From Chlorophyllum brunneum (lineage: Eukaryota > Basidiomycota > Agaricomycetes > Agaricales > Agaricaceae), in NCBI GenBank assembly GCA_963576785.1, contig OY756139.1, positions 4,278,001 through 4,342,000 of the forward strand: DNA of 64,000 nucleotides, in the 5' to 3' direction. The translations under genes were made by a program, and so were the position numbers. Of this stretch, positions 4,061 to 58,365 are shown piece by piece (the first letter of the stretch is position 1; every line of letters begins with the position of its first letter). The notes under the pieces were generated by a model that was not told the origin of the DNA, made no database searches, and was given only the letters and a program-made list of their open reading frames with translations.

Positions 4061-4641
4061 TGTTGAAGTTTCGGACATATTCTAGAAATAGACTATGAGG
4101 TCATTATGATAATAATAGACTGATCTGTTACTTTCCAGTAACTTCAATCTGTAGCAACTTCCTATGAGTTGCTCTGCATACAATAAGAGTCATAAAGTCA
4201 ATTGGTACTTGATAGATTATTCTACATAGTTCCAATGACTGGTATAATGAGTTCCGCAGTACTCCACAGACACTACACTGCAGTTAATAGGAGTCATAAG
4301 GAACCTTCTATGCATTCCTAGTATTTTATGTAGTATGACTTGCCCATGCTCTAACATGTATATAAACCCCATGTAGCAGACCTAGTTCTGCATCTTGTTC
4401 AATTGAACAACTTCTTCATCATCGCTTATCTTCTTGAGTACAACACAAGTCTTGATCTCCTCAACTTTGACCAATCTACCTCTGACACCAACTGCTTCAT
4501 TACTAATATCTGTCTATCTGAATTACCTTTCTATAGGTATCAGATAGAAGCTTATTATCTTGGTGAGTAGACCCTACATTCTCTCCCACTGCATTTACTG
4601 CTGCCCCCAGCAAACAACTTGTTACGGTCATTTCCTCAACA
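4061..4641 (+). repeat. Copia-1 3' LTR (581 bp)
   Basis: Bounded by TGTTGA and TCAACA, preceded by a purine tract, and matching the solo LTR at 58891-59462 end to end. A TATA-like ATGTATATAAACC lies at about 4357-4369. Bases 4642-4785 beyond it show no gene. Confidence 0.93.
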
Positions 4642-11624: not shown

Positions 11625-14600
11625 TCATAATTGCTGCTTTTTACCTCCCCTTTTTATAGGTTTCGTCCTCAAAATCTTGCTCATAAATTCTTGTACCGCT
11701 TCCTTGGCGTTGTCTAAATTTGTCTCGTCTTCCCATGTATCTTCTTCGGACGTATATCCTTTCCAGTGTACTAGGTACCGTTTTCGTTTTCCTTTTGTGC
11801 GGTGTCCTCAGACTTCGTCTACTTCGTAATGTTCCTCATCATTGACTATCTCAGGGATTGGTGGTGGCGGATTGCGCTGGCTGTCATACTCGGGGTTATG
11901 ATAGGGGGAGAGTAGTCTGCTGTTGAACACATCGTGTATCGCCCATGTTTCAGGTAGCTCCAGCTGGTAGCTTGTTTCGCCTATTTTTTCTTTTACTCAG
12001 AACGGTCTGTATCTCCTGTGGTCAAGTTTTTTTGTTGGTCTTGTTGTCCTAATATTGTCTGCCTTGAGCCAAATTTGGTCTCCTGCTCGGTACTCATGTT
12101 CTGGCTTTGTGCTGTTCCATTTCTTCATTTGTACCTGGTTTTGTTGTAGCATCTTGATCGTCTCTTGGCATATGTCCTGTAGCTCCTGTATTCGCTCCGT
12201 GATTGCAGGGGCCTTGATCTCATTTGAGATGTCTCCTTTCCATGGGTGTTGTCCGTATACTATCTGGAACGGCGAATGTCCCGTGGCACTATGTGTTTTA
12301 TCGTTGTACTGGAATTCTGCGGTGCTGAGCCATTTCTTCCAGTTGTCCTGTGCATGGTTGATTACGTTTCTGAGGTATGCCTCGACCTCTTGGTTGATGC
12401 ATTCCGTTTGACCATCTGTTTGTGGATGGTATGCTGTGGATAGGTTACGTTGGGTGCCGGTTGCTCTGCAAAGTTCCGCCATGAATTTTGATGCGAATTG
12501 TGGACCTCTGTCACTGATGATCCTGCGTGGTATCCCATGTTGTCTCCATATGTCGTCCCGATATATATCTCCTAGCTCCTCGGATGATAGGGTGGTGTTA
12601 ACTGCACGTAGTCTGATCATTTTGCTGAAACAATCAACGATGACAAGTATCGCATCGTATCCCTCTGATTCTGGCAGTGGTCCTATCATGTCGATTGATA
12701 TCTCTTCCCATGGTCCGGTGGGTATTGGTAGCGGATGGAGGTGTGTGGTAGGTCGTGTTCGGAGTATTTTGTTTCGTTGACATGTGTCGCATCCCTTGAT
12801 GTATCGTTTAACATCATTGCGCATTTGTGGCCACCAATATGTCCTTTTGAGGAGTTCGATCATTCTGTGTTGTCCCGGGTGTCCTACGTCCGTTCTGTCG
12901 TGGTGTTGTTGGAGTATTTCTTGGCGTAACTCGGTGTTTGGTGGTACGTATATTCTTCCTTCGAAGATGGGTAATCCATCAGTTTCCCATATCTCTTCTG
13001 GTCGTTTCTCTTTTTCTCTTAACCATTGTGTTTCTCTCCTCTGCTCCTTTTGTAATCGGTGTTTCAGGTCTTCTTCTCCCGATATATCCCAAATTTGTCT
13101 GATCTCGGTGGTATTGTTGTCGAATAAGTGGTCGGGTAATAGTGTGATATTTGTGTTGTCTCTGGTTGTATCCGTTTTCGCTAGTCTTGATAACACATCT
13201 GCTTTTGTGTTTGTTTTTCCGGGTATGTGTTTTAATGTGTAGTGATATTCCTGTAGTTCCAGTTGCCATCTCGCCTGTCATCCTGTGAGTTGTTGCGGTT
13301 TCCTGAAGTATTCCAAGTTCTTGTGGTCCGTCCATATCTCGAATGGTTTGTCGGCATCAAGTAGATATTGTCTCCAAGTTTTGATTGCTTCTCGGATTGC
13401 CAATAGTTCTTTGTCGTAGATTTGGTAGTTTCGTTCTGCTGGTGTCATTGTTCTCGAGTGGAAGGCGATTGGGTGCCACTGGTCATTCTGGTCTTGTGAT
13501 AATACCACTCCTACTCCGTATCCTGACACGTCCACTTCCACTCTATATTGTCCTTTGTCTCGGGGCATTGCTAGTACTGGTTCGCTTGTGATTTTCTTCT
13601 TGATTTTTTCAAACGCTTGCTGTTGTCGTTCTGACCATGACCATTGCGCATCCTTCTTCTTTAGCTCGTGTAGTGGTGTTGCTATGTTACTGAAGTCTTG
13701 TATGAATCGTTGGTAGAAGTTTGCAAAGCCCAGGAATTTTTCGACGTCTTTCATGGACTTGGGTGTTGGCCATTCCCTTACTGCTTTCACCTTCTCTTCC
13801 TCCATTTTAACGCTGCCCTGTCCTACTACAAAGCCCAATATGGGTATTTCCTTCACGTCGAACATACATTTTGATCGCTTGAAGTAGAGCTGGTGTTTGG
13901 CTGCAATGTCTAAGAACCGCATCGTTCTTTTCTCGAGTTCTTCCTGTGTGGTCCCTGGAATGACAAAATCGTCCATGTAGTTGACGAGCGCTCCTTCATG
14001 TAATAGTTCCCGAAATATCGTGTTCATCATTCTCTGAAAGGTTGCTGGTGAATTGCTCATCCCGAAGAACATGACCGTAGGTTCGAATAATCCGCTGTTT
14101 GTTACGAACGCTGCCTTCCATTCATCTCCTTTCCTGATTCTGATGTTGTTGTATCCCCAAATGATATTGAGCTTGTTAAACACTTTTGCATCCTTTAATC
14201 AATCTAGAACTTTGCCTATGAGTGGCAGTGGCATTTTATCCTTGATAGTGTGTTCATTCAGCTTTTTGTAATCTTGTACCAGGCGTTTTGTTCCGTCCTT
14301 CTTTGGTATAAAGAAACATGGGGTGGCGTAGGGGGATTGTGATGGTCTGATTTGTCCTGAGGCGAGGTTTTCGTCGAGGAACTTCTGTAGTTCCTGTTTT
14401 TCCGTTATTGTCATCGGATAAACTTTGGACTGTAGTACCGGGGGTGCATCCTCTGACAGATTTATCTCGTGGTCCCATACTGTGTGTGCGGGTAAATTAT
14501 CAAAGTTCTTCTTGTTGAATAGGTGGGTGTATTGTCAGAGGTATGGTGGTAGATCTTCGTCATCCGTCCGGTCTGCCTTTTTCTCTTCAATGTGTTCCTT

Positions 14601-15047
14601 GACTGTCTGTATTTTCTCGTTGAACTGTATGTCGCTATGTGATATTTTGCAATCTTCTGGACATCTAGTGAATCATATGACGTGATTGTTCCAATCGATT
14701 TCCGGGTTATGCTTAACCAGCCAATCGTGTCCGAGATATAAGTCCGCGCTTTCCAATTGTGTTACTAGAGCGTCGATTTGTTCCATGTGGTTGCCGTTGT
14801 TTAGTACCAGTTGTGCCTTGTCCGTTATTTTTCCTTTCCTGTTTTCCGTTCCGTCGGCATTGATTACTTTGATCAGGGTTTCCAGGGGTTTAGTCGGGAT
14901 CTGTTCTTCCTCTATTGTTCGTTGTGCTATGCACGTGTGGGTGCATCCGGAGTCTACCAGGGTTGTAATTGGTCTGCGTCCTTTTCTTGTCTGGATTGTT
15001 GAGTCGAGGAGAAGTTCGCGCGTAGAGTTTCGTTTTTGGGGAATCAT
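11625..15047 (-). pseudogene. GypA-1 pol: protease, RT, RNase H, integrase, chromodomain
   Basis: One frame with several stops. Protease TTLVDSGCTHTCIA (about 14925-14965). RT from the TPCFFIPKKDGTKRLVQDYK block (about 14270-14330) to catalytic VNYMDDFVI (about 13960-13985). RNase H with VEVDVSGYGVG (about 13520) and TDHKNLEYF (about 13320). Integrase zinc domain HHDRTDVGHPGQH to CDTCQRNK (about 12780-12920), then DMIGPLPE, SDRGPQFASKF and the QTDGQTECINQEVEAY block (D, D, E). The chromodomain YLVHWKGYTSEEDTWE is at about 11725-11775. A TGA lies between RNase H and integrase (about 13277), shared with GypA-4. Pol is in the -1 frame relative to gag. Its stop overlaps the next ATG (ATGA). Confidence 0.92.
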
Positions 15048-15106
15048 GTATCATCTATTGTGTGATAGAACAGAAACTCTAGGTTTATTGGCTCGCAGGT
15101 TTGCGC

Positions 15107-16351
15107 CTACTCGGAGCCTTCGACAAAATCCTCTTTCTCCTCCCTTTCTTGTTCATCGTCCTCGTTGATCTTTCTGATATGCGCTTTCTTGGGCGCCCGG
15201 CAGTTCTTCGAGATGTGGCCCTGATTGCCACAATTGTAACATGTTATTTTGGTGTATGTGACTTTCATCTTCTTCCTGCAGTATTTGGCGATATGCCCAT
15301 AGAGGTTGCAATTGTAGCACCTCGGTTTTCCATTTTGATCGGTGTCTGCTCTTTGTCTTCCTATCTCCATTGGTTGTCTTCTACCTCCATAGATAACTCC
15401 GGTGGTGGTTCTGACATCTCCTCGGGTGATGTCCGTTGCTTCATAGCCTTGTCCTACTGCAAGGATCGTGGTTTTCCATTTGCTATATGTCATTGGGACG
15501 GAGGCTGTCGGGTAGCCTACTATGGTTCGAATAATGTCTGCTCGGGTGTGACGTTTGAGGAGGAATATTGCATGGGTGTTGTCTGTCCCCGCTTGGGCTC
15601 TTAATGCCTCGAATTCGATTAAGAAATCTGCCGTGTTCTTCTTTCCCTGTTTAAATGTCTCTATTTCTCCTTCTGCTATAGCTTTCCTATTCCCCAAGGA
15701 GAATGTGGCTTCTATTTCTTTTGTGAAGTCATCCCAACCCAGGGTTTTCTTATTCTGGATGGCCTGTAGCTGTGTGTTGGCGTAAGGGCCTGCTAGCCCC
15801 CCTTTCATTCTTGCCAAAATAGCTACTATCTTCTGTTCATCTTCATCTATCTTATTGAACATTAGCCACAAGGATATGGCTCTCCACCAATCATCGAATT
15901 TAGTTCTATCTCCATCGAAATATCCTGGCTCTGGGGCTAGGTTCTTTGGGACGTTGATTTCGTCTGTCATTTCTGGTTCTAATTCTGGTTTGCTGTGTTC
16001 GTTTTCGTAGGTCTCGGCGATTTCTATATCGGCTGTGGCGTCGGCGACTTCTGTGTTGATTTCTTCTTCAAATGGGGTTGGTTCTTTGTCTGTGCTGTGT
16101 TCGGATTCTTCTTTGTAGGTCTCGGTGACTTCTATGTCGGATGTAGTCTCGGCGACTTCTATGTCGAATTCGGTCTCAAATAGAGCTGTGTTCTCGTCTA
16201 CGCTGTGTTCGGATTTCTGCTGTTTAAGGCCTTCAGGGATTTCTGGTTCTGTTGATCGTTTGGATCCTATTGCTACGGGTGAACCCTGGATGTCGGATGG
16301 TCTCGGAGCTCTGTATCTTCTTGGTGTTCTCGATGAGCTACTGCTGCTCAT
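15107..16351 (-). CDS. GypA-1 Gag, 414 aa
   Basis: Intact open frame, starting with a Ser run and a basic patch (SSSSSSRTPRRYRAPRP). Next come imperfect acidic repeats of the type EVAETTSDIEVTETY (residues ~50-125), then a conserved capsid-like core (FDGDRTKFDDWWRAISLWLMF, from residue ~140). Two CCHC knuckles follow, CYNCNLYGHIAKYC and CYNCGNQGHISKNC (residues ~345-380), and an acidic tail ends the protein. It would form the particle and bind element RNA. The same protein appears broken in GypA-2, -3 and -4, with differing numbers of acidic repeats. The ATG is shared by GypA-1, -2, -3 and -4. Confidence 0.9.
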   Translation of the reverse strand: MSSSSSSRTPRRYRAPRPSDIQGSPVAIGSKRSTEPEIPEGLKQQKSEHSVDENTALFETEFDIEVAETTSDIEVTETYKEESEHSTDKEPTPFEEEINTEVADATADIEIAETYENEHSKPELEPEMTDEINVPKNLAPEPGYFDGDRTKFDDWWRAISLWLMFNKIDEDEQKIVAILARMKGGLAGPYANTQLQAIQNKKTLGWDDFTKEIEATFSLGNRKAIAEGEIETFKQGKKNTADFLIEFEALRAQAGTDNTHAIFLLKRHTRADIIRTIVGYPTASVPMTYSKWKTTILAVGQGYEATDITRGDVRTTTGVIYGGRRQPMEIGRQRADTDQNGKPRCYNCNLYGHIAKYCRKKMKVTYTKITCYNCGNQGHISKNCRAPKKAHIRKINEDDEQEREEKEDFVEGSE

Positions 16352-16431: not shown

Positions 16432-16443
16432 ACACTTTACCAA
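16432..16443 (-). promoter_or_regulatory. GypA-1 self-priming primer-binding site
   Basis: TTGGTAAAGTGT on the minus strand, one base inside the LTR. It is the exact reverse complement of ACACTTTACCAA in the adjacent LTR (plus coordinates 16528-16539), downstream of its TATATAAAG box. Confidence 0.75.
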
Positions 16444-16444
16444 A

Positions 16445-16684
16445 TGTTACGACCTTAGTCTCTGACTCAGGTTGCAAGCCTTTGGATAAAGGAAAGGAAG
16501 TAGAGAAAGGAAGAAGGGATGATACGATTGGTAAAGTGTAAGGAATACATCAAGTATTACTACACTTTATATACTAGTGGTGAGGGCTAAGAATAAGGGA
16601 GTCAAGTAAAGGAGTCATAGGAGACGAGTAGAATGAGTCAGGCAGAAGGCATAGCCTCTAGGGGTGATACAGGAGATGAAACAA
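16445..16684 (-). repeat. GypA-1 inner 5' LTR, first ~60 bp of U3 missing
   Basis: Matches the GypA LTR from its gag-side end TGTTACGACC (plus strand) but stops at GATGAAACAAG, where the other LTRs continue another ~60 bp. The adjoining 129 bp are foreign. Confidence 0.85.
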
Positions 16685-29835: not shown

Positions 29836-32800
29836 ATAACGTCCCTGACGAGCAAGACAGGCCTCCTCGTTCACTCCTGAATGAGTTGAAGGTCTGCTCT
29901 CACAATGTAGGAAGATCATATGGAGTGATGGAGACAGTCCTCACGCGTAGAGATGACGTCGACCTCCTCCTCATACAAGAACCCCCTTGGAGATTCCTCC
30001 GAGATATCCCCTCCTCTGTCTCCAACGACGGTACACCCCTGGTAGGAGGCCCAGTTCACCCAGACTGGATGCTCCTTTCTTATCCAATCATCGCTGAAGA
30101 AGTCCTGCAAGTAGGACACCAATGATACCCTCAATGTACGGTCAACATGGAACACCGTACCACACCGCAAGTTCTTGCCTTCGCTCATAAAAGGCTGAAA
30201 CGACTCTGACCATCCATCTGAAGAGATGTAATTGACCATCGAGACCTCCTGTGTATATCTCTATATGCAGGAGGAGAGGAACTACTGCTGCTGAACGTGT
30301 ATAATGATAGCCGCAACACCGCGCTCCACTTCCTCGAGGAGTGACTCTTCGACCTCCCGCCCTTTCTTCTCGTGGGAGGAGACATCAATATCAGATCGGA
30401 GTTCTGGAACCCTTCAACGGATCAACATCCGGCGAGTGCAGACTGACTCCTTATGGTCACTGAAGCCCTCAATCTTGTGAGGTCAACTCCGTTCGAGGCC
30501 AAGCCGACCCGTTATGCCTCGGACCCCAATTTACCAGACACGGTCATTGACCTACTCTTTGTTTCGGGATTGCTACCACACATTCCCTCCCATGCTATCC
30601 AGGACGGTGATTGGTACAACTCAGACCACGCCCCCCTGCTAATCAGGCTACCTATTCCGCAGATGGACATTGTCGTCGAAAGACTGACTATCCCCAAGAA
30701 TTCGGAAGAGGAGACCAAGTTCCTGACCGATATTGTTGAAGGAATAAAGAACCAAAACTGGCCGATGAATGACGTGGATGAGCTGGAGAGAGCTGTTGCC
30801 GAATTGGGAGTTTTGTTTGATAGATCCTGGACCCGCAATGTGAAGAAGACCAAGATCACCACTAGATCCAAGACCTGGTGGAACGAGGAGTGCTCGACTG
30901 CACTCGCTACGCACCATGCGGACCACAAGAACAAGCGCAAATGGAACGCTTTTCGCAAGACTACGAGGAAGACAAAAAGAGCATACTTCAACAAGAAGAT
31001 ACAAGAAATCTCTGTCGACCGAAAACGCCCGTGGGATCTCACACCATGGATCAAAGATTGCGCACTCCCGGCCACGGAAGCCATGCGTCACAACGGCCGG
31101 CCTTGTCTCACACTAGACAATCTGTGGACGGCTCTCAACCAACACTACAATTCTGCCCAGGATAGACCAACGAACACGGCAGTTCTGGATGAGCTCCCTC
31201 CTCCGAACGGAATGGAGAATAGGACTTGGGTAGACTTCTCTCTCCTTGAGATGATGGAGTTGCTCAAGGATACCTCGAATTCTTCCTCCCCCAGTCCCAA
31301 CCATATTTCCTGGTCCCATCTCAAGCAGATCGTCGCTGATGAAACGTGTGCAGATCTACTCCTCAAAATCGGTAGTAAGTGTCTGAATATTGGACACTGG
31401 CCTACCCACTTCAAAAAGTCTACGTCGGTGATCATACCAAAACCCAACAAACCCGACTATTCCACTCCAAAGGCATTCCGACCGATCGTCCTCCTCAACA
31501 CATTTGGCAAGCTAATAGAGAAAATGCTCGCTAAACGACTCCAATTTGAGGCCGTTAAATTCAAGGTCCTCCACCTGCACCAATTGGGAGTGATCCGCCA
31601 AAGGTCTACTGAAGACGCGGGTCTCTTCCTGACACACATCATCCGGGGAGCTTGGACGAAGAAGAAGAAAATGTCGGTGCTTGCATTCGATGTAGCCCAA
31701 TTCTTCCCCTCCCTCAACCACGATCTCCTTGTCGAAATTCTACGACGGCAAGGATTTCCCCCTCAGGTCGCCGCGTTCTTCAATAACTACCTCAAAGAAC
31801 ACCGCACCACCTACCGGTGGAACAATGAGACTTCCCCGGAATTCGATGCAGTGGTAGGAGTAGGCCAGGGTTCGGCCCTTAGCCCTATTCTCTCTGCTCT
31901 ATTCCTTGCCCCCCTCTTACATGTCTTCGACATTTGTATGGAGGAACACCATGACAAGTGGGACTTTGATGTCCTCTCGTTTGTCGACGATGGCACTCTA
32001 GTGGCTCAATCCCTGTCCCTTGAGAAGAACGTCGAAATCCTTCAACATATGTACCGTGAAATGGAGCGGCTCATGAACGAATTCGGACTGGAAATTGAAC
32101 ACAGCAAGTTGGAGGTCTTTCACTTCATGCGTGTGAGACAAGACTCGAATCCCTCCATCGATTTGGGATCCCCGCCGTTCACCGGTCGCAACCTACTCAA
32201 ACCGAAGACCCACTGGCAGTACCTCGGCTTTTACTTTGACCAGACGTTAACCTTCAAGGAACACGTTCGATTCTACTCCGCCAAGGCGATATCCACAATC
32301 AAGGCAATGAAAATGCTGGGAAACTCCGTTAGAGGACTGTCTCCCACCAACAAGAGGTTACTCTACCGTTCATGTGTCGTGCCAGTTGCGACATATGGAT
32401 TCTGACTATGGTTTCACGATCGATCCCGCACCAAGGGGACTTGTGAAATCCTCAACAAAATGCAACGAAGGGCAGCACTCTGGATCACCGGGGCCTTCCG
32501 GACTTCTCCCACTGGCGGTGTTGAGTCCCTCGCAGGGCTCATGCCCATCAAACTTCATCTCTGAAAGTTGGCCGAATGACAATCATCGAGGCTTTATACA
32601 TTGGACAATGAACACGCATTGGCAAGACTGACGAAGGAATTCCACTCTTCCCCCCACCGACTTCACATCAAGAACTTCACAGAGGTTCAGAAGAAGAAGA
32701 CATTAGGAGCTGTGATGGACTTTTCGTGCCCCAACCCCGAGACTCGGTATATAGAACATTTCAATTCCGTTTCTAAATCTCTCTGGCCCAGACGTAGGTT

Positions 32801-33880
32801 ACTTGACTGTTTCTCTACTAATGTAAATTTTATAGGATTCGACCGGGACAACCCTCACCTCTCAAAGACACTTTGGGACGATGTAACAACGAATGCGACA
32901 ACGGACACAAAATCCATCACGATCAGTACGGACGGCTCAGTCCACCCCAATCCCAATCCACTTGCCAGCCAGTTCACGGCAGCAGCCACCATTCGACATC
33001 TTGACGGCAGGAGCTCTATCATGAAGAGGCTCAGAGGAACCACGTCGATGGACACTGAACTAGTAGCACAGTACCTAGGCATCACCAAAGTACTCGCCAC
33101 CACCGAATATGACCAGGTTGAGCACATCCATGTGTTCACCAACTCCATCGTAGCTTCCCAGCTCCTACTCGACTGTTTGCCGCACTCCTGCCAATGACAG
33201 TCCATCATCACATCAAAGGTGCTCCTGGCTTGTTCAACAAATCAGGCCAACACTGCCTTTCCTTTTACCACACGCCATCGAAATGCAAGTACGGGATACA
33301 AAGAGCCACTCACGACTGGATTCAAACAGTCGCCTGGCCTAACTGGGGTCAAAACTACCGAGTACCAAACTCGATCGACTACCTATGCAAGAAGTCCACC
33401 GAACATGCCATTCACACATGGCAGGCCATGTTCGGGTTCAAAACCTACAGTGGTAGCTCCTTCCTCCACCTCCCGGTGCAAGCGAATGGAGCCTCCACCT
33501 TACCGTCGCACATCAAGTCCGGACCATGGATACGAGAATGCAGATACCAGCCCCAGCTCTTCGCAAGAGCTTGTCGCGCTATACTATGCCATGCCCCGAT
33601 TGGAGAGTATTGACTTAGATTCTTTCCTAATGAGGACCTTTCGTGCCACCACTGCAACAGTCAAATGGTGCAAACGCGGTCACACATCCTGTATCGTTGC
33701 AACAACTTCGATCATCACTTCGGCGTCGACACGATCAAGACATTCGTCAACTTCTTGTGTTGCAACCCCTCCGTGTTCAGCTTCCCCCCGGAACCTGATC
33801 GTCCCCGTATTCGTGCCAGTTCAATCCCACCGTTACATCGTCATCAAGTCCGAAGAAGGTTTGGGTCTGCGCCTGTGTAG
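29832..33880 (+). pseudogene. L2 ORF2: APE endonuclease, RT, RNase H, CCHC
   Basis: The ATG at 29832 overlaps the ORF1 stop (ATGA). Endonuclease: LLIQEPPWRF (~29965), VGGDINIRSEFW (~30375), SDHAPLLIRL (~30622). RT in a 650-codon open segment 30453-32405: SVIIPKPNKPDYS, FDVAQFFPSLNHDL, GQGSALSPILSAL, catalytic FVDDGTL (~31980). RNase H 32601-33197: STDGSVHPNPN and DTELVAQYLGI, but VFTNS where L1 has VFTDS. A one-base deletion near 33225 shifts the frame to the C-terminal CHHC...HILYRC knuckle (~33650-33710). The end is TAG 33878-33880. Stops at 30123, 32403 and 33195 are TGA. Inactive, but the best-preserved RT of the five LINE copies. Confidence 0.9.
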
Positions 33881-34316
33881 GGTCCTTTTCTTTTATCTTT
33901 CTTCTTTTGCTTTCCAGGTTATGGATTTCCAATTCATTTCTCTATCTCCCCTTTCCTCGCTTGTCTACTTTTTTATATAGTTTTCGTTCAACTTCCATTT
34001 CTCCCGTGGTGCCTGGGTAAATACCTGCCCACACACTATGTACCATTTGATGTTCCCCCTTGTGATTGCGAGTAGATAGTTTCTTTTCTATCAATCTCTC
34101 TCTCTCACTCTCTCTTTTTCCAATTCCCTCTCTCCTCTCTCTTTGCTGAACATTGTAGGTACCAAACATCTCTCTAGTGTACGCGCTAGATGTCGTCGAG
34201 TCTCGTGGGGTTAGTTTACTTGTAGTTTACTTTCCCTTCTCCGAACATTCTGTACGTTCTACCTTTGTATGTATGTACACGTGGACTGCATTCGAGCACC
34301 ACTATATAAATTGTTG

Positions 34317-34350
<34 letters not shown>
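33881..34350 (+). other. L2 3' UTR and poly(A) tail
   Basis: Non-coding, with a CT-rich stretch at 34095-34142, and a 31-base A run from 34320. Confidence 0.8.
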
Positions 34351-39775: not shown

Positions 39776-39868
39776 ATACTGTTGTCCTGGTCAAAGGCTA
39801 TTATTCCAAGCCTAGCTACAAATAGTGGCACCTCTCTTGTAAGGTGAGTCAAATGACACTTTACCAAA

Positions 39869-40172
39869 TGTTACAACCTGAGTCTACAACTCAGGTAGCA
39901 AGTCTTTGGATAAAGACAAGAAGGTAGAGAAAAGAGGAAGGGATAATACAATTGGTAAAGTATAAGGAATACATCAAGTATTACTACACTTTATATACTA
40001 GTGGTGAGCTCTAAGAATAAAGGAACAGAGTAAAGGAGTCATAGAGGATGAGTAGAACAAGTCAGTAAAAGTACAGCCTTAAGAAGTGAAACAGGGGTGA
40101 GACAGATACATAGGGCCAACAAGTACAATGGGTGCGTGATAGAAATGGACTATCTATCTATAGTTCATAACA
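39869..40172 (-). repeat. GypA-3 5' LTR (304 bp)
   Basis: TGTTACAACC to GTTCATAACA. The primer site complement ACACTTTACCAA lies just left (39856-39867). The LTR anchor here reads GGTAAAGTAT, one mismatch. Confidence 0.9.
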
Positions 40173-42218: not shown

Positions 42219-42259
42219 TCAGGTGATAGGACCGGATGGATCCTAGTCAGGAGGGATTG

Positions 42260-45022
42260 TTTTTTTTTTTTTTTTTTTTTTCCTTCAACAATTTATATAG
42301 CGGTGCTCGAATGCAGTCTGCGTGTACATACATACAAAGGTAGAACGTACAGAATGTTCGGAGAAGGGAAAGTAAACTACAAGTAAACTAACCCCACGAG
42401 ACTCGACGACATCTAGCGCGTACACTAGAGAGATGTTTGGTACCTACAATGTTCAGCAAAGAGAGAGGAGAGAGGGAATTGGAAAAAGAGAGAGTGAGAG
42501 AGAGAGATTGATAGAAAAGAAACTATCTACTCGCAATCACAAGGGGGAACATCAAATGGTACATAGTGTGTGGGCAGGTATTTACCCAGGCACCACGGGA
42601 GAAATGGAAGTTGAACGAAAACTATATAAAAAAGTAGACAAGCGAGGAAAGGGGAGATAGAGAAATGAATTGGAAATCCATAACCTGGAAAGCAAAAGAA
42701 GAAAGATAAAAGAAAAGGACCCTACACAGGCGCAGACCCAAACCTTCTTCGGACTTGATGACGATGTAACGGTGGGATTGAACTGGCACGAATACGAGGA
42801 CGATCAGGTTCCGGGGGGAAGCTGAACACGGAGGGGTTGCAACACAAGAAGTTGACGAATGTCTTGATCGTGTCGACGCCGAAGTGATGATCGAAGTTGT
42901 TGCAACGATACAGGATGTGTGACCGCGTTTGCACCATTTGACTGTTGCAGTGGTGGCACGAAAGGTCCTCATTAGGAAAGAATCTAAGTCAATACTCTCC
43001 AATCGGGGCATGGCATAGTATAGCGCGACAAGCTCTTGCGAAGAGCTGGGGCTGGTATCTGCATTCTCGTATCCATGGTCCGGACTTGATGTGCGACGGT
43101 AAGGTGGAGGCTCCATTCGCTTGCACCGGGAGGTGGAGGAAGGAGCTACCACTGTAGGTTTTGAACCCGAACATGGCCTGCCATGTGTGAATGGCATGTT
43201 CGGTGGACTTCTTGCATAGGTAGTCGATCGAGTTTGGTACTCGGTAGTTTTGACCCCAGTTAGGCCAGGCGACTGTTTGAATCCAGTCGTGAGTGGCTCT
43301 TTGTATCCCGTACTTGCATTTCGATGGCGTGTGGTAAAAGGAAAGGCAGTGTTGGCCTGATTTGTTGAACAAGCCAGGAGCACCTTTGATGTGATGATGG
43401 ACTGTCATTGGCAGGAGTGCGGCAAACAGTCGAGTAGGAGCTGGGAAGCTACGATGGAGTTGGTGAACACATGGATGTGCTCAACCTGGTCATATTCGGT
43501 GGTGGCGAGTACTTTGGTGATGCCTAGGTACTGTGCTACTAGTTCAGTGTCCATCGACGTGGTTCCTCTGAGCCTCTTCATGATAGAGCTCCTGCCGTCA
43601 AGATGTCGAATGGTGGCTGCTGCCGTGAACTGGCTGGCAAGTGGATTGGGATTGGGGTGGACTGAGCCGTCCGTACTGATCGTGATGGATTTTGTGTCCG
43701 TTGTCGCATTCGTTGTTACATCGTCCCAAAGTGTCTTTGAGAGGTGAGGGTTGTCCCGGTCGAATCCTATAAAATTTACATTAGTAGAGAAACAGTCAAG
43801 TAACCTACGTCTGGGCCAGAGAGATTTAGAAACGGAATTGAAATGTTCTATATACCGAGTCTCGGGGTTGGGGCACGAAAAGTCCATCACAGCTCCTAAT
43901 GTCTTCTTCTTCTGAACCTCTGTGAAGTTCTTGATGTGAAGTCGGTGGGGGGAAGAGTGGAATTCCTTCGTCAGTCTTGCCAATGCGTGTTCATTGTCCA
44001 ATGTATAAAGCCTCGATGATTGTCATTCGGCCAACTTTCAGAGATGAAGTTTGATGGGCATGAGCCCTGCGAGGGACTCAACACCGCCAGTGGGAGAAGT
44101 CCGGAAGGCCCCGGTGATCCAGAGTGCTGCCCTTCGTTGCATTTTGTTGAGGATTTCACAAGTCCCCTTGGTGCGGGATCGATCGTGAAACCATAGTCAG
44201 AATCCATATGTCGCAACTGGCACGACACATGAACGGTAGAGTAACCTCTTGTTGGTGGGAGACAGTCCTCTAACGGAGTTTCCCAGCATTTTCATTGCCT
44301 TGATTGTGGATATCGCCTTGGCGGAGTAGAATCGAACGTGTTCCTTGAAGGTTAACGTCTGGTCAAAGTAAAAGCCGAGGTACTGCCAGTGGGTCTTCGG
44401 TTTGAGTAGGTTGCGACCGGTGAACGGCGGGGATCCCAAATCGATGGAGGGATTCGAGTCTTGTCTCACACGCATGAAGTGAAAGACCTCCAACTTGCTG
44501 TGTTCAATTTCCAGTCCGAATTCGTTCATGAGCCGCTCCATTTCACGGTACATATGTTGAAGGATTTCGACGTTCTTCTCAAGGGACAGGGATTGAGCCA
44601 CTAGAGTGCCATCGTCGACAAACGAGAGGACATCAAAGTCCCACTTGTCATGGTGTTCCTCCATACAAATGTCGAAGACATGTAAGAGGGGGGCAAGGAA
44701 TAGAGCAGAGAGAATAGGGCTAAGGGCCGAACCCTGGCCTACTCCTACCACTGCATCGAATTCCGGGGAAGTCTCATTGTTCCACCGGTAGGTGGTGCGG
44801 TGTTCTTTGAGGTAGTTATTGAAGAACGCGGCGACCTGAGGGGGGAATCCTTGCCATCATAGAATTTCGACAAGGAGATCGTGGTTGAGGGAGGGGAAGA
44901 ATTGGGCTACATCGAATGCAAGCACCGACATTTTCTTCTTCTTCGTCCAAGCTCCCCGGATGATGTGTGTCAGGAAAAGACCCACGTCTTCAGTAGACCT
45001 TTGACAGATCACTCCCAATTGG
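42260..45022 (-). mobile_element. L3: 5'-truncated LINE, inverted partner of L2
   Basis: Poly(A) is the T run at 42260-42281. Its 2.76 kb matches L2 31580-34319, mostly identical. The 5' junction carries the 15-bp duplication whose mate lies after L2. The 3' junction is Copia-2, which should flank L2. Confidence 0.9.
42722..45022 (-). pseudogene. L3 ORF2, C-terminal half: RT, RNase H, CCHC
   Basis: Begins within RT at QLGVI, fused to GypA-2 gag (NWWRAMSLWTLFNN) in one frame by chance. FVDDGTL is at about 44610-44640 and RNase H at 43405-44001. It has the same frame change, same TGA stops and same D-to-N in VFTNS as L2. Almost every defect is shared with L2, so the two became identical after those defects arose. 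Confidence 0.88.
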
Positions 45023-45037
45023 TTGTTAAAGAGTGTC
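45023..45037 (-). repeat. LINE target-site duplication, 5' copy (15 bp)
   Basis: Reverse complement of 34351-34365, in GypA-2 gag at the 5' end of L3. Confidence 0.88.
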
Positions 45038-45468: not shown

Positions 45469-45561
45469 ATACTGTTGTCCTGGTCAAAGGCTATTATTCC
45501 AAGCCTAACTATGAATAGTGGCACCTCTCTTGTAAGGTGAGTCAAATGACACTTTACCAAA

Positions 45562-45695
45562 TGTTACAACCTGAGTCTACAACTCAGGTAGCAAGTCTTT
45601 GGATAAAGACAAGAAGGTAGAGAAAAGAGGAAGGGATAATACAATTGGTAAAGTGTAGGGAATATATCAAGTATTACTACACTTTATATACTAGT
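45562..45695 (-). repeat. GypA-2 5' LTR, truncated (134 bp)
   Basis: TGTTACAACC to TATATACTAGT, interrupted by the GypC-1 terminus TGTTACAG. Confidence 0.85.
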
Positions 45696-52126: not shown

Positions 52127-53569
52127 TGCAACTTGGTCAAGATTGAACAAGTCCAACGTTGCGTGAAGCAAAAGGAGACTACTCCACCTGCACCTCCGGT
52201 CTACTGGACTAGATTGCAATCCAAGGCTGCAGAGCCTTACAGTGTTGAGCCTACTCAACAAACCTCCTAGCAAAACCCAGAACCAGTTCAATATTCCCCA
52301 CCAGCCTCCATCCAACAGTCCACCTCAACCACTTCCCAACCCCTTGAACATCCCTCAACTAGCGCCACAGCTAGTAGGATTAGAACCAGTGAACCTGCCC
52401 CAAGACAGAGTTCAGAGTCTTATCAGACACCTGCTTACATGCAATCCAACTGGGCACAACAAGTGATCTCAAGACAATAATCACAGCAATCCCAGCAATC
52501 CCAGCAGTCTGACCAACAGTACAGAGAACCCATTTCTACTGAGTCTGAACATTCAGACAACCCTGAGCACTCCAAACATGGAAGTGAGCACTCTGAAGAG
52601 CCACCATCCCAGACACCAGAACTTGAGCCCCAATATGAATTCAATGACAACATATCAAATTTACCAAACCCACTTGCTGGAGCCCTCCAGCTACTCCAAG
52701 AACAAAGAGAAAGGGAAGCTCAATGAAGTCAAACCAGCCAGACAACCAACTATCAGTCAACCAGCTATCAGACAACCCAACCAGTGGTACCTGCCAGCAC
52801 CTACCAGCAGATGACTAGAACACCAGGACCTCCAATTACACTCAGGACAACCCAACGGCCACAAACCCGCCAATCATCCCCATCAAACTCCCCAGCAAGC
52901 TTGCCACCAAACTCACCCACAGGATCAAACATACCAGACCCCAAGCTCCCAAAGCCCACCATTTTCTACAGTGACCTGCTTGACTATCCCAACTGGAAGC
53001 AGAACCTCCAGATCTACTTCACATCACAGCTCAACAATCTACCAAATGACGAGTCCAAAATCATGTATGCCCTCCTTAGCATGGAAGGATCAGCCAGAGA
53101 ATGGAAACAAGCCTACACCATCTCACACACCACCAACAATGTCTTCAGCCCCACCCAGACCATCAAACAGTTCCTCACAGAACTTGACACCTCGTTTCTA
53201 CCAGCAAACGACACCCTCGTCGCCATCAATCAACTATCTAATGTCACCCAGAATGGACAACCCACCGCAGTCTATGTCGAGCAATTCAAGAATATGTGTA
53301 CCTGAGCCGGAATCACCCATGCAGAGACCAAAATCATGTTCTTCATTAAAGGACTGGATCTGTATTACAAAAGGCTTGTCTACAGTCAGAACCCTGCCCC
53401 AAACAACATCAATGCTTGGTACACAGCCACGCAAAATGCAGCAACAATGGCACACCTACAACAGAATTTTAGCTCAACAGGACATCATCACTCAGTACGA
53501 CATACCTCCCATCGCTCGAAATATTGCACTCTGAAAGCATCAAGTTCAATGTCTTATGCAAGACCTTAC
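52127..53569 (+). pseudogene. GypC-2 gag, N-terminal and capsid part
   Basis: One frame with four or more stops (TAG or TAA at Gln, TGA at Arg). The N-terminal region is Gln/Ser/Pro-rich (SQQSQQSQQSDQQYREP, ~52475-52530). The capsid-like core follows: PTIFYSDLLDYPNWKQNLQ (~52960-53015), NDESKIMYALLSMEGSAREW, FLTELDTSFLPANDTL and FIKGLDLYYKRLVY. It is cut at the GypA-4 duplication CTTAC and continues in frame at 58366. Confidence 0.75.
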
Positions 53570-53870
53570 TGTTACAAATTGTAGGCCATTCATTTCTATC
53601 ATGCGCCCATTACCTCGTGTACCCTCATACTTGTTTCACCTCCTGTATCACCCCTAGAGGCTATGCCTCTTACCTGACTCCTTCTACTCGTCTCCTATGA
53701 CTCCGTTACTCGACTCCCTTATTATTAGCCCTTACCACTAGTATATAAAGTGTAGTAATACTTGATGTATTCCTTACACTTTACCAATCGTATCATCCCT
53801 TCTTCCTTTCTCTACTTCCTCCCCTTTATCCAAAGGCTTGCAACCTGAGTCAGAGACTAAGGTCGTAACA
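53570..53870 (+). repeat. GypA-4 5' LTR (301 bp)
   Basis: TGTTACAAAT to GGTCGTAACA. TATATAAAG at 53742-53750, anchor ACACTTTACCAA at 53776-53787. Confidence 0.95.
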
Positions 53871-53871
53871 T

Positions 53872-53883
53872 TTGGTAAAGTGT
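53872..53883 (+). promoter_or_regulatory. GypA-4 self-priming primer-binding site
   Basis: TTGGTAAAGTGT, one base inside the LTR, is the exact reverse complement of ACACTTTACCAA (53776-53787), which starts 34 nt after the TATA box start. Confidence 0.8.
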
Positions 53884-53964
53884 CATTTCGACTCACCTTA
53901 CAAGAGAGGTGCCACTATTCGTAGCTAGGCTTGGAATAATAGCCTCCGACCAGGACAACAGTAT

Positions 53965-55365
53965 ATGAGCAGCAGTAGCTCATCGAGAACACCGAGAAGA
54001 CAGAGAGCTCCGAGACCAACAGACATCCAGGGTTCACCCGTAGCAACAGGATCCAAATGATCAACAGAACCAGAAATCCCTGAAGGCCTTAAACGGCAGA
54101 AATCCGAACATAGTGTAGACGAAAACACAGCTCTATTTGAAACCGAATTTGACACAGAAGTCGCCGAGAACACATCCGATATAGATATCGCCGAGACCTA
54201 CGAAGAAGAATCCGAACACAGCACAGACGAAGAACCAGCTCCATTTGAAGAAGAAATCGACACAGCTTTATTTGAAACTGAATTCGACACAGAAGTTGCC
54301 GACGCCACAGCCGATATAGAAATCGCCGAGACCTACGAAAATGAACACAGCGAACCAGAGTTAGAACCAGAAATGACAGATGAAATCAATGTCCCAAAAA
54401 ACCTAGCCCCGGAACCAGGATATTTCAATGGGGATAGGACCAAATTTGACGATTGGTGGAGAGCCATATCCTTATGGCTAATGTTCAACAAGATAGATGA
54501 AGAGGAACAGAAAATAGTAGCCATTTTGGCAAGAATGAAAGGAGGACTAGCAGGTCCTTATGCCAACACACAACTATAAGCCATCCAGAATAAGAAAACA
54601 CCGGCTTGGGAGGACTTCACAAAAGAAGTAGAAGCCACATTCTCCTTGGGGAATAGAAAAGCCATAGCAGAAGGAGAAATAGAAATGTTCAAACAGGGAA
54701 AGAAGAACACAGCAGACTTCTTAATCGAATTTGAGGCATTAAGAGCCCAAGCAGGAACAGATGACACACACACGATATTCCTCCTCAAGCGTCACACCCG
54801 AGCAGACATTATCCAAACCATAGTAGGATATCCGACAACCTCCGTCCCAACAACATATAGTAAATGGAAAACCACGATCCTCGCAGTAGGACAAGGTTAC
54901 GAAGCAACGGACATAACCCGAGGAGATGTCAAAACCACCACCGGAGTTATCTATGGGGGAAGAGGACAACCCATGGAGATAGGACGACAAAGGGCAGACA
55001 CCGATCAGACTGGAAAACCGAGGTGCTACAATTGTAACCTCTATGGGCATATCGCCAAATACTGCAGGAAGAAGACGAAAGTCACGTACACCAAAATAAC
55101 GTGTTACAATTGCGGTAAACAGGGCCATATCTCGAAGAACTGCTGGGCACCCAAGAATGACCAGTGGCACCCAATTGCCTTCCACTCGAGAACAATGACA
55201 CCGGCAGAACGAAATTACCAAATCTACGACAAAGAACTATTGGCAATCCGAGAAGCGATCAAAACTTGGAGACAATATCTACTCGATGCCGACAAACCAT
55301 TCGAGATATGGACAGACCACAAGAACTTGGAATACTTTAGGAAACCGCAACAACTCACAGGATGA
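53965..55365 (+). pseudogene. GypA-4 Gag fused to RNase H (protease and RT deleted)
   Basis: Gag from its family ATG: Ser run, acidic repeats (one more ALFETEFDTEVA unit than GypA-1), capsid core, knuckles CYNCNLYGHIAKYC and CYNCGKQGHISKNC. At about 55155 the sequence jumps from NCWAPK to NDQWHPIAFHSRTM, which in GypA-1 are about 1.7 kb apart. The shared GAA at the junction suggests microhomology-mediated deletion. RNase H C-terminal motifs WTDHKNLEYF follow, then TGA (55363-55365). Stops at 54058 (TGA) and 54577 (TAA). Confidence 0.9.
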
Positions 55366-57018
55366 CAGGCGAGATGGCAACTGGAACTACAGGAATATCA
55401 CTACACGTTAAAACACATACCCGGAAAAACAAACACAAAAGCAGATGTGTTATCAAGACTAGCGAAAACGGATACAACCAGAGACAACACAAATATCACG
55501 CTATTACCCGACCACTTATTCGATAACACAACCACCGAGATCAGACAAATTTGGGATATATCGGGAGAAGAAGACCTGAAACACCGATTACGAAAGGAGC
55601 AGAGGAGAGAAACACAATGGTTAAGAGAAAAAGAGAAACGACCAGAAGAGATATGGGAAACTGATGGATTACCCATCTTCGAAGGAAGAATATACGTACC
55701 ACCAAACACCGAGTTACGCCAAGAAATACTCCAACAACACCATGACAGAACGGACGTAGGACACCCGGGACAACACAGAATGATCAAACTCCTCAAAAGG
55801 ACATATTGGTGGCCACAAATGCGCAATGATGTTAAACGATACATCAAGGGATGCGACACATGTCAACGAAACAAAATACTCCGAACACAACCTACCACAC
55901 ACCTCCATCCGCTACCAATACCCACCGGACCATGGGAAGAGATATCAATCGACATGATAGGACCACTGCCAGAATCAGAGGGATACGACGCGATACTTGT
56001 CATCGTTGATCGTTTCAGCAAAATGATCAGACTACGTGCAGTTAACACCACCCTATCATCCAAGGAGCTAGGAGATATATATCGGGACGACATATGGAGA
56101 CAACATGGGATACCACGCAGGATCATCAGTGACAGAGGTCCACAATTTGCATCAAAATTCATGGCGGAACTTTGCAGAGCAACCGGCACCCAACGTAACC
56201 TATCCATGGCATACCATCCACAAACAGACAGTCAAACGGAGCGCATCAACCAAGAGGTCGAGGCCTACCTCAGAAATGTAATCAATCATGCACAGAACAA
56301 CTGGAAGAAATGGCTCAGCACCACAGAATTCCAGTATAACGATAAAACACATAGTGCCACAGGACATTCACCATTCCAGATAGTATACGGACGACACCCA
56401 TGGAAAGGAGACATCACAAATGAGATCAAGGCTCCAGCAATCACGGAAAGAATACAGGAACTACAGGACATACGCCAAGAGACGATCAAGATGCTCCAAC
56501 AAAACCAGGTACAGATGGAGAAGCGGAACAGCACAAAGCCAGAACACGAGTACCGAGCAGGAGACCAAATTTGGCTGGAGGCAGACAATATTAGGACAAC
56601 AAGACCAACGAAGAAACTAGATCACAAGAGATACGGACCGTTCTGGGTAAAAGAAAAAATAGGAGAAACAAGCTACTGCCTGGAGCTACCTGAAACATGG
56701 GCGATACATGACGTATTCAACAGCAGACTACTTTCCCCCTATCATAACCCCGAGTATGACAGCCAGCGCACTCCGCCACCACCGATCCCCGAGATAGTTA
56801 ATGATGAGGAACACTACGAAGTAGATGAAGTCCGAGGACACTGCACAAAAGGGAAACGAAAACAGTACCTAGTACACTGGAAAGGATATACGTCCGAAGA
56901 AGATACATGGGAAGACGAGACAAATTTAGATAATGCCAAGGAAGCGGTACAAGAATTTATGAGCAAGATTTCGAGGACGAAACCTATAAAAAGGGGAGGT
57001 AAAAAGCAGCAATTATGA
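55366..57018 (+). CDS. GypA-4 integrase with chromodomain (open segment)
   Basis: 550 codons open after the TGA that all GypA copies share here. KHIPGKTNTKADVLSRL closes the RNase H linker. Zinc domain HHDRTDVGHPGQH and CDTCQRNK (~55740-55870). Catalytic core: DMIGPLPES (~55950), SDRGPQFASKF (~56130) and the QTDSQTERINQEVEAY block (~56225-56270). GPF/Y-type DHKRYGPFWVKEKIG (~56620). Chromodomain YLVHWKGYTSEEDTWEDE (~56865-56925). The stop at 57016-57018 overlaps ATG 57015. It has no start of its own and would need readthrough or fusion upstream. Catalytic residues appear intact. Confidence 0.85.
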   Translation, partial: QARWQLELQEYHYTLKHIPGKTNTKADVLSRLAKTDTTRDNTNITLLPDHLFDNTTTEIRQIWDISGEEDLKHRLRKEQRRETQWLREKEKRPEEIWETDGLPIFEGRIYVPPNTELRQEILQQHHDRTDVGHPGQHRMIKLLKRTYWWPQMRNDVKRYIKGCDTCQRNKILRTQPTTHLHPLPIPTGPWEEISIDMIGPLPESEGYDAILVIVDRFSKMIRLRAVNTTLSSKELGDIYRDDIWRQHGIPRRIISDRGPQFASKFMAELCRATGTQRNLSMAYHPQTDSQTERINQEVEAYLRNVINHAQNNWKKWLSTTEFQYNDKTHSATGHSPFQIVYGRHPWKGDITNEIKAPAITERIQELQDIRQETIKMLQQNQVQMEKRNSTKPEHEYRAGDQIWLEADNIRTTRPTKKLDHKRYGPFWVKEKIGETSYCLELPETWAIHDVFNSRLLSPYHNPEYDSQRTPPPPIPEIVNDEEHYEVDEVRGHCTKGKRKQYLVHWKGYTSEEDTWEDETNLDNAKEAVQEFMSKISRTKPIKRGGKKQQL

Positions 57019-57115
57019 ACAACAAACCTCGCATTCCAAGCAACCACTACACTCAATGCATCACTCGTGGTATCCAATTCACACTTGACTTCGCCAATTA
57101 TCTTTACAACACACC

Positions 57116-57952
57116 ATGCCCGCCGAACGCCAACTTACCCCATACCCCTACCTCAAAGAATTCGAAGAACTCGTCCCAGAAAGGACCAGCCATGAAGAAC
57201 TCGTAGAAGGAGAAACCCTAGTCGACACCATAATACTATTGGGCGCAGCAGTGAAAGCAACCCAAGAAGGCACCTCGAAAATTATGGACACATTATCCGA
57301 AGCCACTCCGAGACTCAATCAGTTCATCATCGATGAAGGAAGGAGAGACCAACTAGAGAGGCACTTGTACGAAATTAACGACGACTTGCAACTCCTCGTT
57401 ATCTCCAACATACGAGCTCGGATGCACAGTATCCTCGTAGACCTAGCCGAGCGACTCAATACGTACGAGTCAAGAAGCACAGACAACCTCTCCCACCACA
57501 TCGTTAATCAACTACTCGTTAGTAACGACCCATTCCCCATCCAACATCACATCTGCCACACATGCGAACAAAAGACTCAAGGAAGAACCGCTGCCGATCA
57601 GTTACTCCACCCCGACATCGAAGAAGAAGTCGCTCATCTCCAGACCATACTCACCACGGTAGTACCCCCCATCACACCCATGATCTTCCACCCGCCGACA
57701 GGATATAACACGTTGAAATCAGAAGGTGAAAAGGACAACGACTACTGGAAGGACATCGTGCATAAACTGCTAAGCAATCACACCAACGACAACACCACGT
57801 ATAACAACCACACCCACTTCTTGTTCAAAGAAGGACTGCCACACGCACCCCTCTGGATTGGCTTACGACGTGTTGACAAAGCACCTCTCATCGGAGGAAA
57901 CAAGAAGGACTTGGCCAGAGCTCTGGGAGCGGCCGTACCCATGAACGAGTAA
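57116..57952 (+). CDS. GypA-4 ORF3, 278-aa protein of unknown function
   Basis: Same length and start (MPAERQLTPYPYLKEF) as the GypA-1 ORF3 and almost identical to it; most differences are conservative. Intact although protease and RT are gone from this element. 97 bp after the integrase stop. Region: acidic N-terminus, CHTCEQ, acidic PDIEEEVAHLQ, YWKDIVHKLLSNHTND, PLWIGLRRVDKAP, KKDLARALGA at the C-terminus. No transmembrane or signal segment. A short upstream frame (MNNKPRIPSNHYTQ, 57015-57206) overlaps its start and may influence translation. Function unknown; proteins of this position are not usual in chromoviruses. Confidence 0.8.
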   Translation: MPAERQLTPYPYLKEFEELVPERTSHEELVEGETLVDTIILLGAAVKATQEGTSKIMDTLSEATPRLNQFIIDEGRRDQLERHLYEINDDLQLLVISNIRARMHSILVDLAERLNTYESRSTDNLSHHIVNQLLVSNDPFPIQHHICHTCEQKTQGRTAADQLLHPDIEEEVAHLQTILTTVVPPITPMIFHPPTGYNTLKSEGEKDNDYWKDIVHKLLSNHTNDNTTYNNHTHFLFKEGLPHAPLWIGLRRVDKAPLIGGNKKDLARALGAAVPMNE

Positions 57953-58047
57953 ATACTCGTCGCGCTTTCTTATCTTCACCAAATTCCGTATGCTTTATTT
58001 TACAAAGGACCTTTACAGTAATACGCATCATGAGGACATGAAGCTTG

Positions 58048-58059
58048 AAAGGGAGGTAT
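58048..58059 (+). promoter_or_regulatory. GypA-4 polypurine tract
   Basis: AAAGGGAGGTAT-type purine run directly before the 3' LTR, also present in GypA-1 (reverse strand, ~10588) and GypA-2 (38836-38848). Confidence 0.75.
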
Positions 58060-58360
58060 TGTTACGAATTGTAGGCCATTCATTTCTATCATGCGCCCAT
58101 TACCTCGTGTACCCTCATACTCGTTCCACCTCCTGTATCACCCCTAGAGGCTATGCCTCTTACCTGACTCCTTCTACTCGTCTCCTATGACTCCGTTACT
58201 CGACTCCCTTATTATTAGCCCTTACCACTAGTATATAAAGTGTAGTAATACTTGATGTATTCCTTACACTTTACCAATCGTATCATCCCTTCTTCCTTTC
58301 TCTACTTCCTCCCCTTTATCCAAAGGCTTGCAACCTGAGTCAGAGACTAAGGTCGTAACA
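58060..58360 (+). repeat. GypA-4 3' LTR (301 bp)
   Basis: TGTTACGAAT to GGTCGTAACA. Differences from the 5' LTR are A/G at base 7 and two T/C changes near 58123-58127. Confidence 0.95.
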
Positions 58361-58365
58361 CTTAC

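Follow-up and report, generated by a model that had tools for sequence, protein, structure and literature searches.

We analysed a window of 64,000 nucleotides (nt) from Chlorophyllum brunneum (assembly GCA_963576785.1, contig OY756139.1, positions 4,278,001 to 4,342,000 of the forward strand) that carries several copies of GypA, a retrotransposon with long terminal repeats (LTRs). The copy GypA-2 (53570-58360) is bounded by two 301-bp LTRs with 3 differences between them and has a CTTAC target-site duplication on each side. About 1.7 kb of another copy, GypA-1 (13490-15185), is missing from GypA-2, so that the gag zinc knuckle is joined to RNase H at 55150-55160 (+); a Pfam domain search gave an RVT_1 match in GypA-1 and none in GypA-2, and the latter looks non-autonomous. 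The analysis suggests that GypA is very probably a chromodomain Ty3/Gypsy retrotransposon of the Tf1/sushi type, whose minus-strand synthesis is primed by its own RNA. This reading draws on sequence anatomy, conservation, lineage and the failure of the examined tRNA genes to match, with the RNA start, cut and extension modelled on Tf1.

A preliminary description of this DNA had proposed that ACACTTTACCAA in the 5' LTR (53776-53787) is an exact 12-nt complement of TTGGTAAAGTGT (53872-53883), a putative primer-binding site (PBS) one base inside that LTR. Both sequences were read at these coordinates and are perfectly complementary. The LTR pair with its target-site duplication places the LTR end at 53870, and, the 5' LTR ending there in ...GTAACA, T53871 is the sole base between LTR and PBS. 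The distance to the probable TATA box was likewise reproduced, the first T of TATATAAAG (53742-53750) lying 34 nt before A53776, and GypA-1 was confirmed to keep both sites intact (16432-16443 and 16528-16539). All 4 of the primer-site copies in the window are exact. Such an arrangement is rarely obtained by chance: a complement of at least 12 nt starting 0-3 nt past the LTR end occurred in 3 of 20,000 dinucleotide-shuffled LTRs, and one of at least 12 nt in 2 of 20,000 shuffled primer-site windows, while at 4,156 start positions inside the same element no complement was longer than 10 nt.

By analogy with Tf1, transcription would begin at about A53776, and the first 12 nt of the RNA, in the repeated region (R) of the LTR, would fold back over an 84-nt loop to pair with the PBS. 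The RNase H of the element's reverse transcriptase would then cut behind nt 12, and the 3' end thus released would be extended into the unique 5' region (U5). The start, predicted at or within 1-2 nt of 53776, is deduced from the TATA spacing, from a stretch of pyrimidines that ends in A (TTCCTTA) and from the complementarity, which stops exactly there. Folding, which the preliminary description had suggested as a check, gave a 150-nt leader at -34 kcal/mol with the 12-bp primer helix as its closing stem (z-score -3.06; 0 of 200 shuffles equally stable).

The two sites are conserved throughout the genome assembly (38.9 Mb, 14 contigs). The 23-nt junction of LTR end and PBS has 434 matches with at most 3 mismatches, the matches listed being all exact, against 0 for a reversed-pattern control. 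For alignment, 20 element loci were fetched in addition to the window copies, yielding 49 LTRs (query LTR included; one more match, not spanning the region, was left out). The R 12-mer is exact in 46 of these, and the block from TATA to R is about 99% conserved, compared with 78% for the rest of the unique 3' region (U3). The window and the 20 loci hold 23 places matching the part of the leader that follows the PBS, a selection for which the PBS was not required; 22 of them have an exact R and 21 an exact PBS, the PBS exceptions being one change in the PBS of locus L019 and one place in L024 without a PBS. All 12 pairs are kept in 18 of 21 aligned junctions, which were chosen with both sites recognisable and exclude opposite-strand ones in L009 and L012; the three others carry one U-G and two C-A appositions at pair 2.

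The coding regions point to the same lineage. The pol of GypA contains H2C2, rve, SH3_Tf2-1 and, at the integrase C-terminus, a chromodomain, all above cut-offs; its best sequence match in the PDB is Ty3 Gag-Pol, and its nearest named proteins come from agaric fungi, such as an Agaricus bisporus protein with 57% identity over 61% of the query. By hand count, open frames of 1175-1176 codons hold 36 of 150 SH3_Tf2-1 matches (150 of 495 candidates were scored). When 20 SH3_Tf2-1 matches were opened, a GypA LTR was found in the orientation of the match in 18, and only on the opposite strand in L009 and L012. In an integrase-only tree of 26 rows without named reference elements, one branch (support 97/96) separates the 4 self-priming rows (GypA and the relatives L040, L046 and L054) from 5 rows labelled as primed by initiator methionine tRNA. 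Among the latter, only L067 has an LTR pair, L055 and L056 are near-identical, and the label of L055, L056 and L064 comes from a motif located after the integrase match.

These relatives belong to 33 chromovirus loci (L040-L072) found in genome records filed under bacterial or archaeal names (e.g. Streptomyces, Mycobacterium, Trichormus); the loci are evidently eukaryotic contamination. The 27 of the 33 loci with a 5' flank were scanned for the full layout, defined as a complement of at least 9 nt, a CA within 3 nt and a TATA 20-50 nt upstream. It occurs in two, L046 (11 nt) and L054 (9 nt); when the 27 were shuffled 60 times, 57 sets contained no layout and 3 contained one locus. The two are distant relatives (34% and 37% identical), and their letters at the sites are unrelated to those of GypA. 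In L046, AAGGCGAACAA follows TATA at a distance of 32 nt and TTGTTCGCCTT follows a CA at 2 nt, and 11 of 11 pairs are formed in five copies of its family from the same contaminant genome (L046, L094, L096, L097, L098), L098 retaining all of them through a matched change, AAGGTGAACAA/TTGTTCACCTT. On the inner side of the primer helix and next to it, this family has a second helix (GTTRCGG with CCGTGAC), two pairs of which show changes on either side in L096; taken together, both helices have 18 of 18 pairs formed in 5 sequences, with 3 double changes (11 of 500 shuffles as high). In place of the self-primer layout, L067 and L052 show TGGTATCAGAGC 2 nt after CA, which we take to be an initiator-methionine-type PBS, that is, a tRNA match. 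The overlapping contig ends L042 and L068, scanned across the overlap, show the full signature in neither, and a scan of IMG/VR yielded one relative, L039, showing no LTR pair. With lineage, genome-wide conservation, the tRNA comparison described below and the same layout in other letters among relatives, the Tf1-like self-priming put forward in the preliminary description is supported.

Three other explanations were weighed. An ordinary tRNA could prime at TGGTAAAGTGTC (53873 onward), the LTR complement then being a coincidence, and a TGG does stand 2 nt inside the LTR, the usual starting place of tRNA primer sites. However, the tRNA genes examined offer little to pair with it. Of 1531 candidates, 63 were scored; 13 are on the small contig C14, taken as mitochondrial, and the other 50 were fetched. 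These 50 loci show at most 5 contiguous nt from the CCA end, at most 7 of 12 identical positions and a longest complement anywhere of 6 nt, and 3 initiator-methionine genes share only TGGTA with the PBS. In this incomplete set of 53 tRNA genes, no 3' end thus matches better than the self-primer, the longest match from the 3' end being 5 nt. A genome-wide pattern combining a T arm with a ACACTTTA acceptor end had no exact match among those listed, and the 10 of 17 one-mismatch sites that were scanned contained no tRNA. We consider tRNA priming very improbable. Priming in trans, with the primer supplied by the 5' end of a different GypA RNA or by a small RNA that originates at the start of the LTR, is improbable as well: the 12-nt helix could form equally between molecules, and hundreds of copies share nearly the same letters, but pairing in cis would be favoured by the shortness of the natural loop and by the stability of the fold within one molecule, and Tf1 is described as self-primed from its own 5' end (PMC7175516, PMC10085805). 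Lastly, TAAAGTGT in U3, ACACTTTA in R and TAAAGTGT in the PBS might be promoter or protein-binding palindromes unrelated to priming. The conservation of the TATA-to-R block is what a core promoter would display; yet one copy lies outside the LTR, at the very position that priming requires, and the L046 family keeps the complementarity with wholly different letters, which leaves this explanation very improbable.

Self-priming therefore remains our preferred reading, and several points weigh against it. The RNA 5' end of GypA is known only as a sequence prediction, and the tRNA set is incomplete, with Asp, Cys, His, Phe, Trp, Tyr and elongator Met missing from the 50 loci. Within GypA, no covariation is seen between R and PBS, where changes are few and unmatched; most pairs never vary, hence these uncompensated changes neither support nor oppose the primer helix. 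Likewise, the 12-pair helix together with the U5 duplex discussed below scored no better than shuffles on the GypA alignment (500 of 500), a flat score attributable to nearly all pairs being invariant. Among the relatives, the matched change of L098 sits at a CpG and is a single event; it may stem from two deaminations, and only modest weight was given to it as one event. The L046 family also has a sixth copy, L040, which lacks the match, lost in R, and the CA that ends the LTR in this family was placed without confirmation by an LTR pair. The L054 match is 9 nt long and starts about 44 nt after TATA, and so may not be an RNA end.

Besides the primer helix, the leader may contain a second duplex, between the U5 segment CTTGCAACCTGAGTC and GACTCACCTTACAAG downstream of the PBS. 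In GypA-1 it comprises 13 pairs on the two sides of a 2x2 loop (matched by 6 of 2000 shuffles) and in GypA-2 (53837-53851 with 53890-53904) it has one mismatch (54 of 2000); the corresponding RNAduplex z-scores are weak (-1.66 and -0.69, respectively), and no covariation was seen for it in GypA. A similar helix pair around a 2x2 loop is found in L054 (6 of 2000 shuffles as good) and a duplex in L046 (15 of 1000), and none was seen in L094, L096, L097 and L098 (538 to 1000 of 1000 shuffles as good). In GypA, the U5 segment has a second possible partner in the U5 end, with which it forms an overlapping U5 hairpin. Since a single segment has two partners flanking the PBS, the two structures are alternatives, and these mutually exclusive pairings could act as a switch.

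A further complement lies in U3. Between TATA and R, the arm TAAAGTGTA complements TACACTTTA, with a hairpin z-score of -3.15 (-2.35 in the diverged copy C45k). It was as good in 65 of 2000 shuffles within the TATA-R interval and is weak over all of U3 (324 of 2000). The L046 family has an arm with unrelated letters, GTTCGCCTTG/CAAGGCGAAC, with z-scores of -3.25 to -6.33 in L046, L094, L096, L097 and L098; shuffles were as good in 10 of 2000 cases (L046) and 7 of 2000 (L094). For pair counts, the figure was 60 of 500 shuffles, and the statistics of the arm are modest overall. In L098 the arm carries the change that matches R and PBS, so that all three copies agree, plus one A-A mismatch. The arm is absent in L054 (z-score -0.63) and decayed in L040 (-0.24). 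Located upstream of the RNA start, it would be absent from the RNA 5' end and yet present in the 3' LTR, where it can fold onto R. In a folding model that is only suggestive, a 60-A linker standing in for kilobases and the arm-free piece beginning at R, the probability of pairing between 3' R and PBS was 0.000 with the arm and 0.087 (GypA), 0.199 (L098) or 0.953 (L094) without it. From this folding and weak covariation only, we put forward, as a doubtful proposal, that the arm might be a third primer-related copy that hides the self-primer of the 3' LTR and leaves the PBS to the true 5' end. If true, it would explain why the identical 3' primer copy does not occupy the PBS. The arm is possibly a new feature: a literature search by title found none on such an anti-primer arm, which does not establish its absence from print.

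Table 1. Coordinates of GypA features in the window.
Feature	Position	Strand	Remarks
Target-site duplication CTTAC, left copy	53565-53569		Flanks GypA-2
GypA-2 5' LTR	53570-53870	+	TGTTAC...GTAACA, 301 bp; pairs with 58060-58360
Probable TATA box TATATAAAG	53742-53750	+	Mean conservation 99.8% over 49 LTRs
U3 arm TAAAGTGTA	53746-53754	+	Complements TACACTTTA at 53775-53783; possible U3-R hairpin
Proposed self-primer ACACTTTACCAA (R)	53776-53787	+	Predicted first 12 nt of RNA
U5 segment CTTGCAACCTGAGTC	53837-53851	+	Two possible partners: 53890-53904 and the PBS-adjacent U5 end
Primer-binding site TTGGTAAAGTGT	53872-53883	+	One base inside 5' LTR
PBS-downstream segment GACTCACCTTACAAG	53890-53904	+	Possible pretzel-wing partner of U5
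Probable polypurine tract GAAAGGGAGG	58047-58056	+	Ahead of 3' LTR; putative function, from sequence
GypA-2 3' LTR	58060-58360	+	R copy 58266-58277, U3 arm 58236-58244
Target-site duplication CTTAC, right copy	58361-58365		Flanks GypA-2
GypA-1 primer-binding site	16432-16443	-	
GypA-1 self-primer site	16528-16539	-	
Diverged copy C40k, self-primer site	39952-39963	-	One change leaving a U-G pair; PBS 39856-39867 exact
Diverged copy C45k, self-primer site	45645-45656	-	PBS 45549-45560; both sites present

Other elements accompany GypA. A Ty3_capsid-type gag fragment (53006-53494, +) lies directly upstream of GypA-2 and is one of 42 genome-wide matches, 34 of which contain stop codons; this fragment family is an older, second Gypsy family. 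The chromovirus fragment with the best SH3_Tf2-1 score (about 5871-6053 of L009) gave no blastn match to GypA-1 around that position, shows no visible 5' end and probably represents another chromovirus family of the same genome. No other self-primed family was found among the best-scoring SH3_Tf2-1, Integrase_H2C2, RVP_2 and distant-protein matches. Elsewhere in the window, 31579-34345 and 42257-45023 are inverted 2.77-kb copies, 99.5% identical, which overlap an apparent non-LTR element family; RVT_1 is the sole Pfam match of an open reading frame (ORF) in this region (30447-32405).

Self-priming is common among Tf1/sushi elements (PMC10085805, PMC6317226), and it has been proposed for Tcn1 of Cryptococcus (PMC7175516) and for most plant elements of the Tcn1 clade (PMC6317226). 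Tcn1-like elements of basidiomycetes and non-seed plants thus resemble GypA in being chromoviruses with proposed self-priming, whereas SM-Tcn1 of Selaginella is reported to lack a recognisable primer site (PMC2864245). The literature on self-priming in basidiomycetes and mushrooms, as far as its available parts go, describes no GypA-like case, which does not establish absence from print. The initiator-methionine-type chromoviruses L067 and L052 have an integrase related to that of GypA and, with their different PBS, are separated from it by the 97/96 branch. Tj1 of Schizosaccharomyces japonicus is active and has been proposed to self-prime; in Tj1 and in Tosmo/Tcry, the PBS complements the mRNA 5' end (PMC4600332, PMC10085805), as is predicted for GypA. 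GypA differs from them in that 36 of its 150 scored matches lie in one uninterrupted frame.

The closest comparison is with Tf1 and Tf2 of Schizosaccharomyces pombe, which have a single gag-pol ORF (PMC10085805). In Tf1, the first 11 nt of the RNA complement the PBS and are cut after nt 11 (PMC7175516), and the leader consists of three duplexes, the primer/PBS helix plus two that join PBS-adjacent and LTR sequences (PMC10085805). GypA shares with these elements the chromoviral affiliation, a (here predicted) RNA start complementing an LTR-adjacent PBS, an LTR ending in CA and possibly further leader duplexes. It differs from Tf1 in its letters, in having 12 pairs instead of 11, in an RNA start and cleavage that are predicted only, and in a proposed U5 wing that shares its segment with a competing U5 hairpin. 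GypA very likely joins the already known self-priming chromoviruses of the Tf1/sushi type, to which it adds a very abundant and apparently recently active family, with one primer/PBS pair that occurs in hundreds of natural variants.
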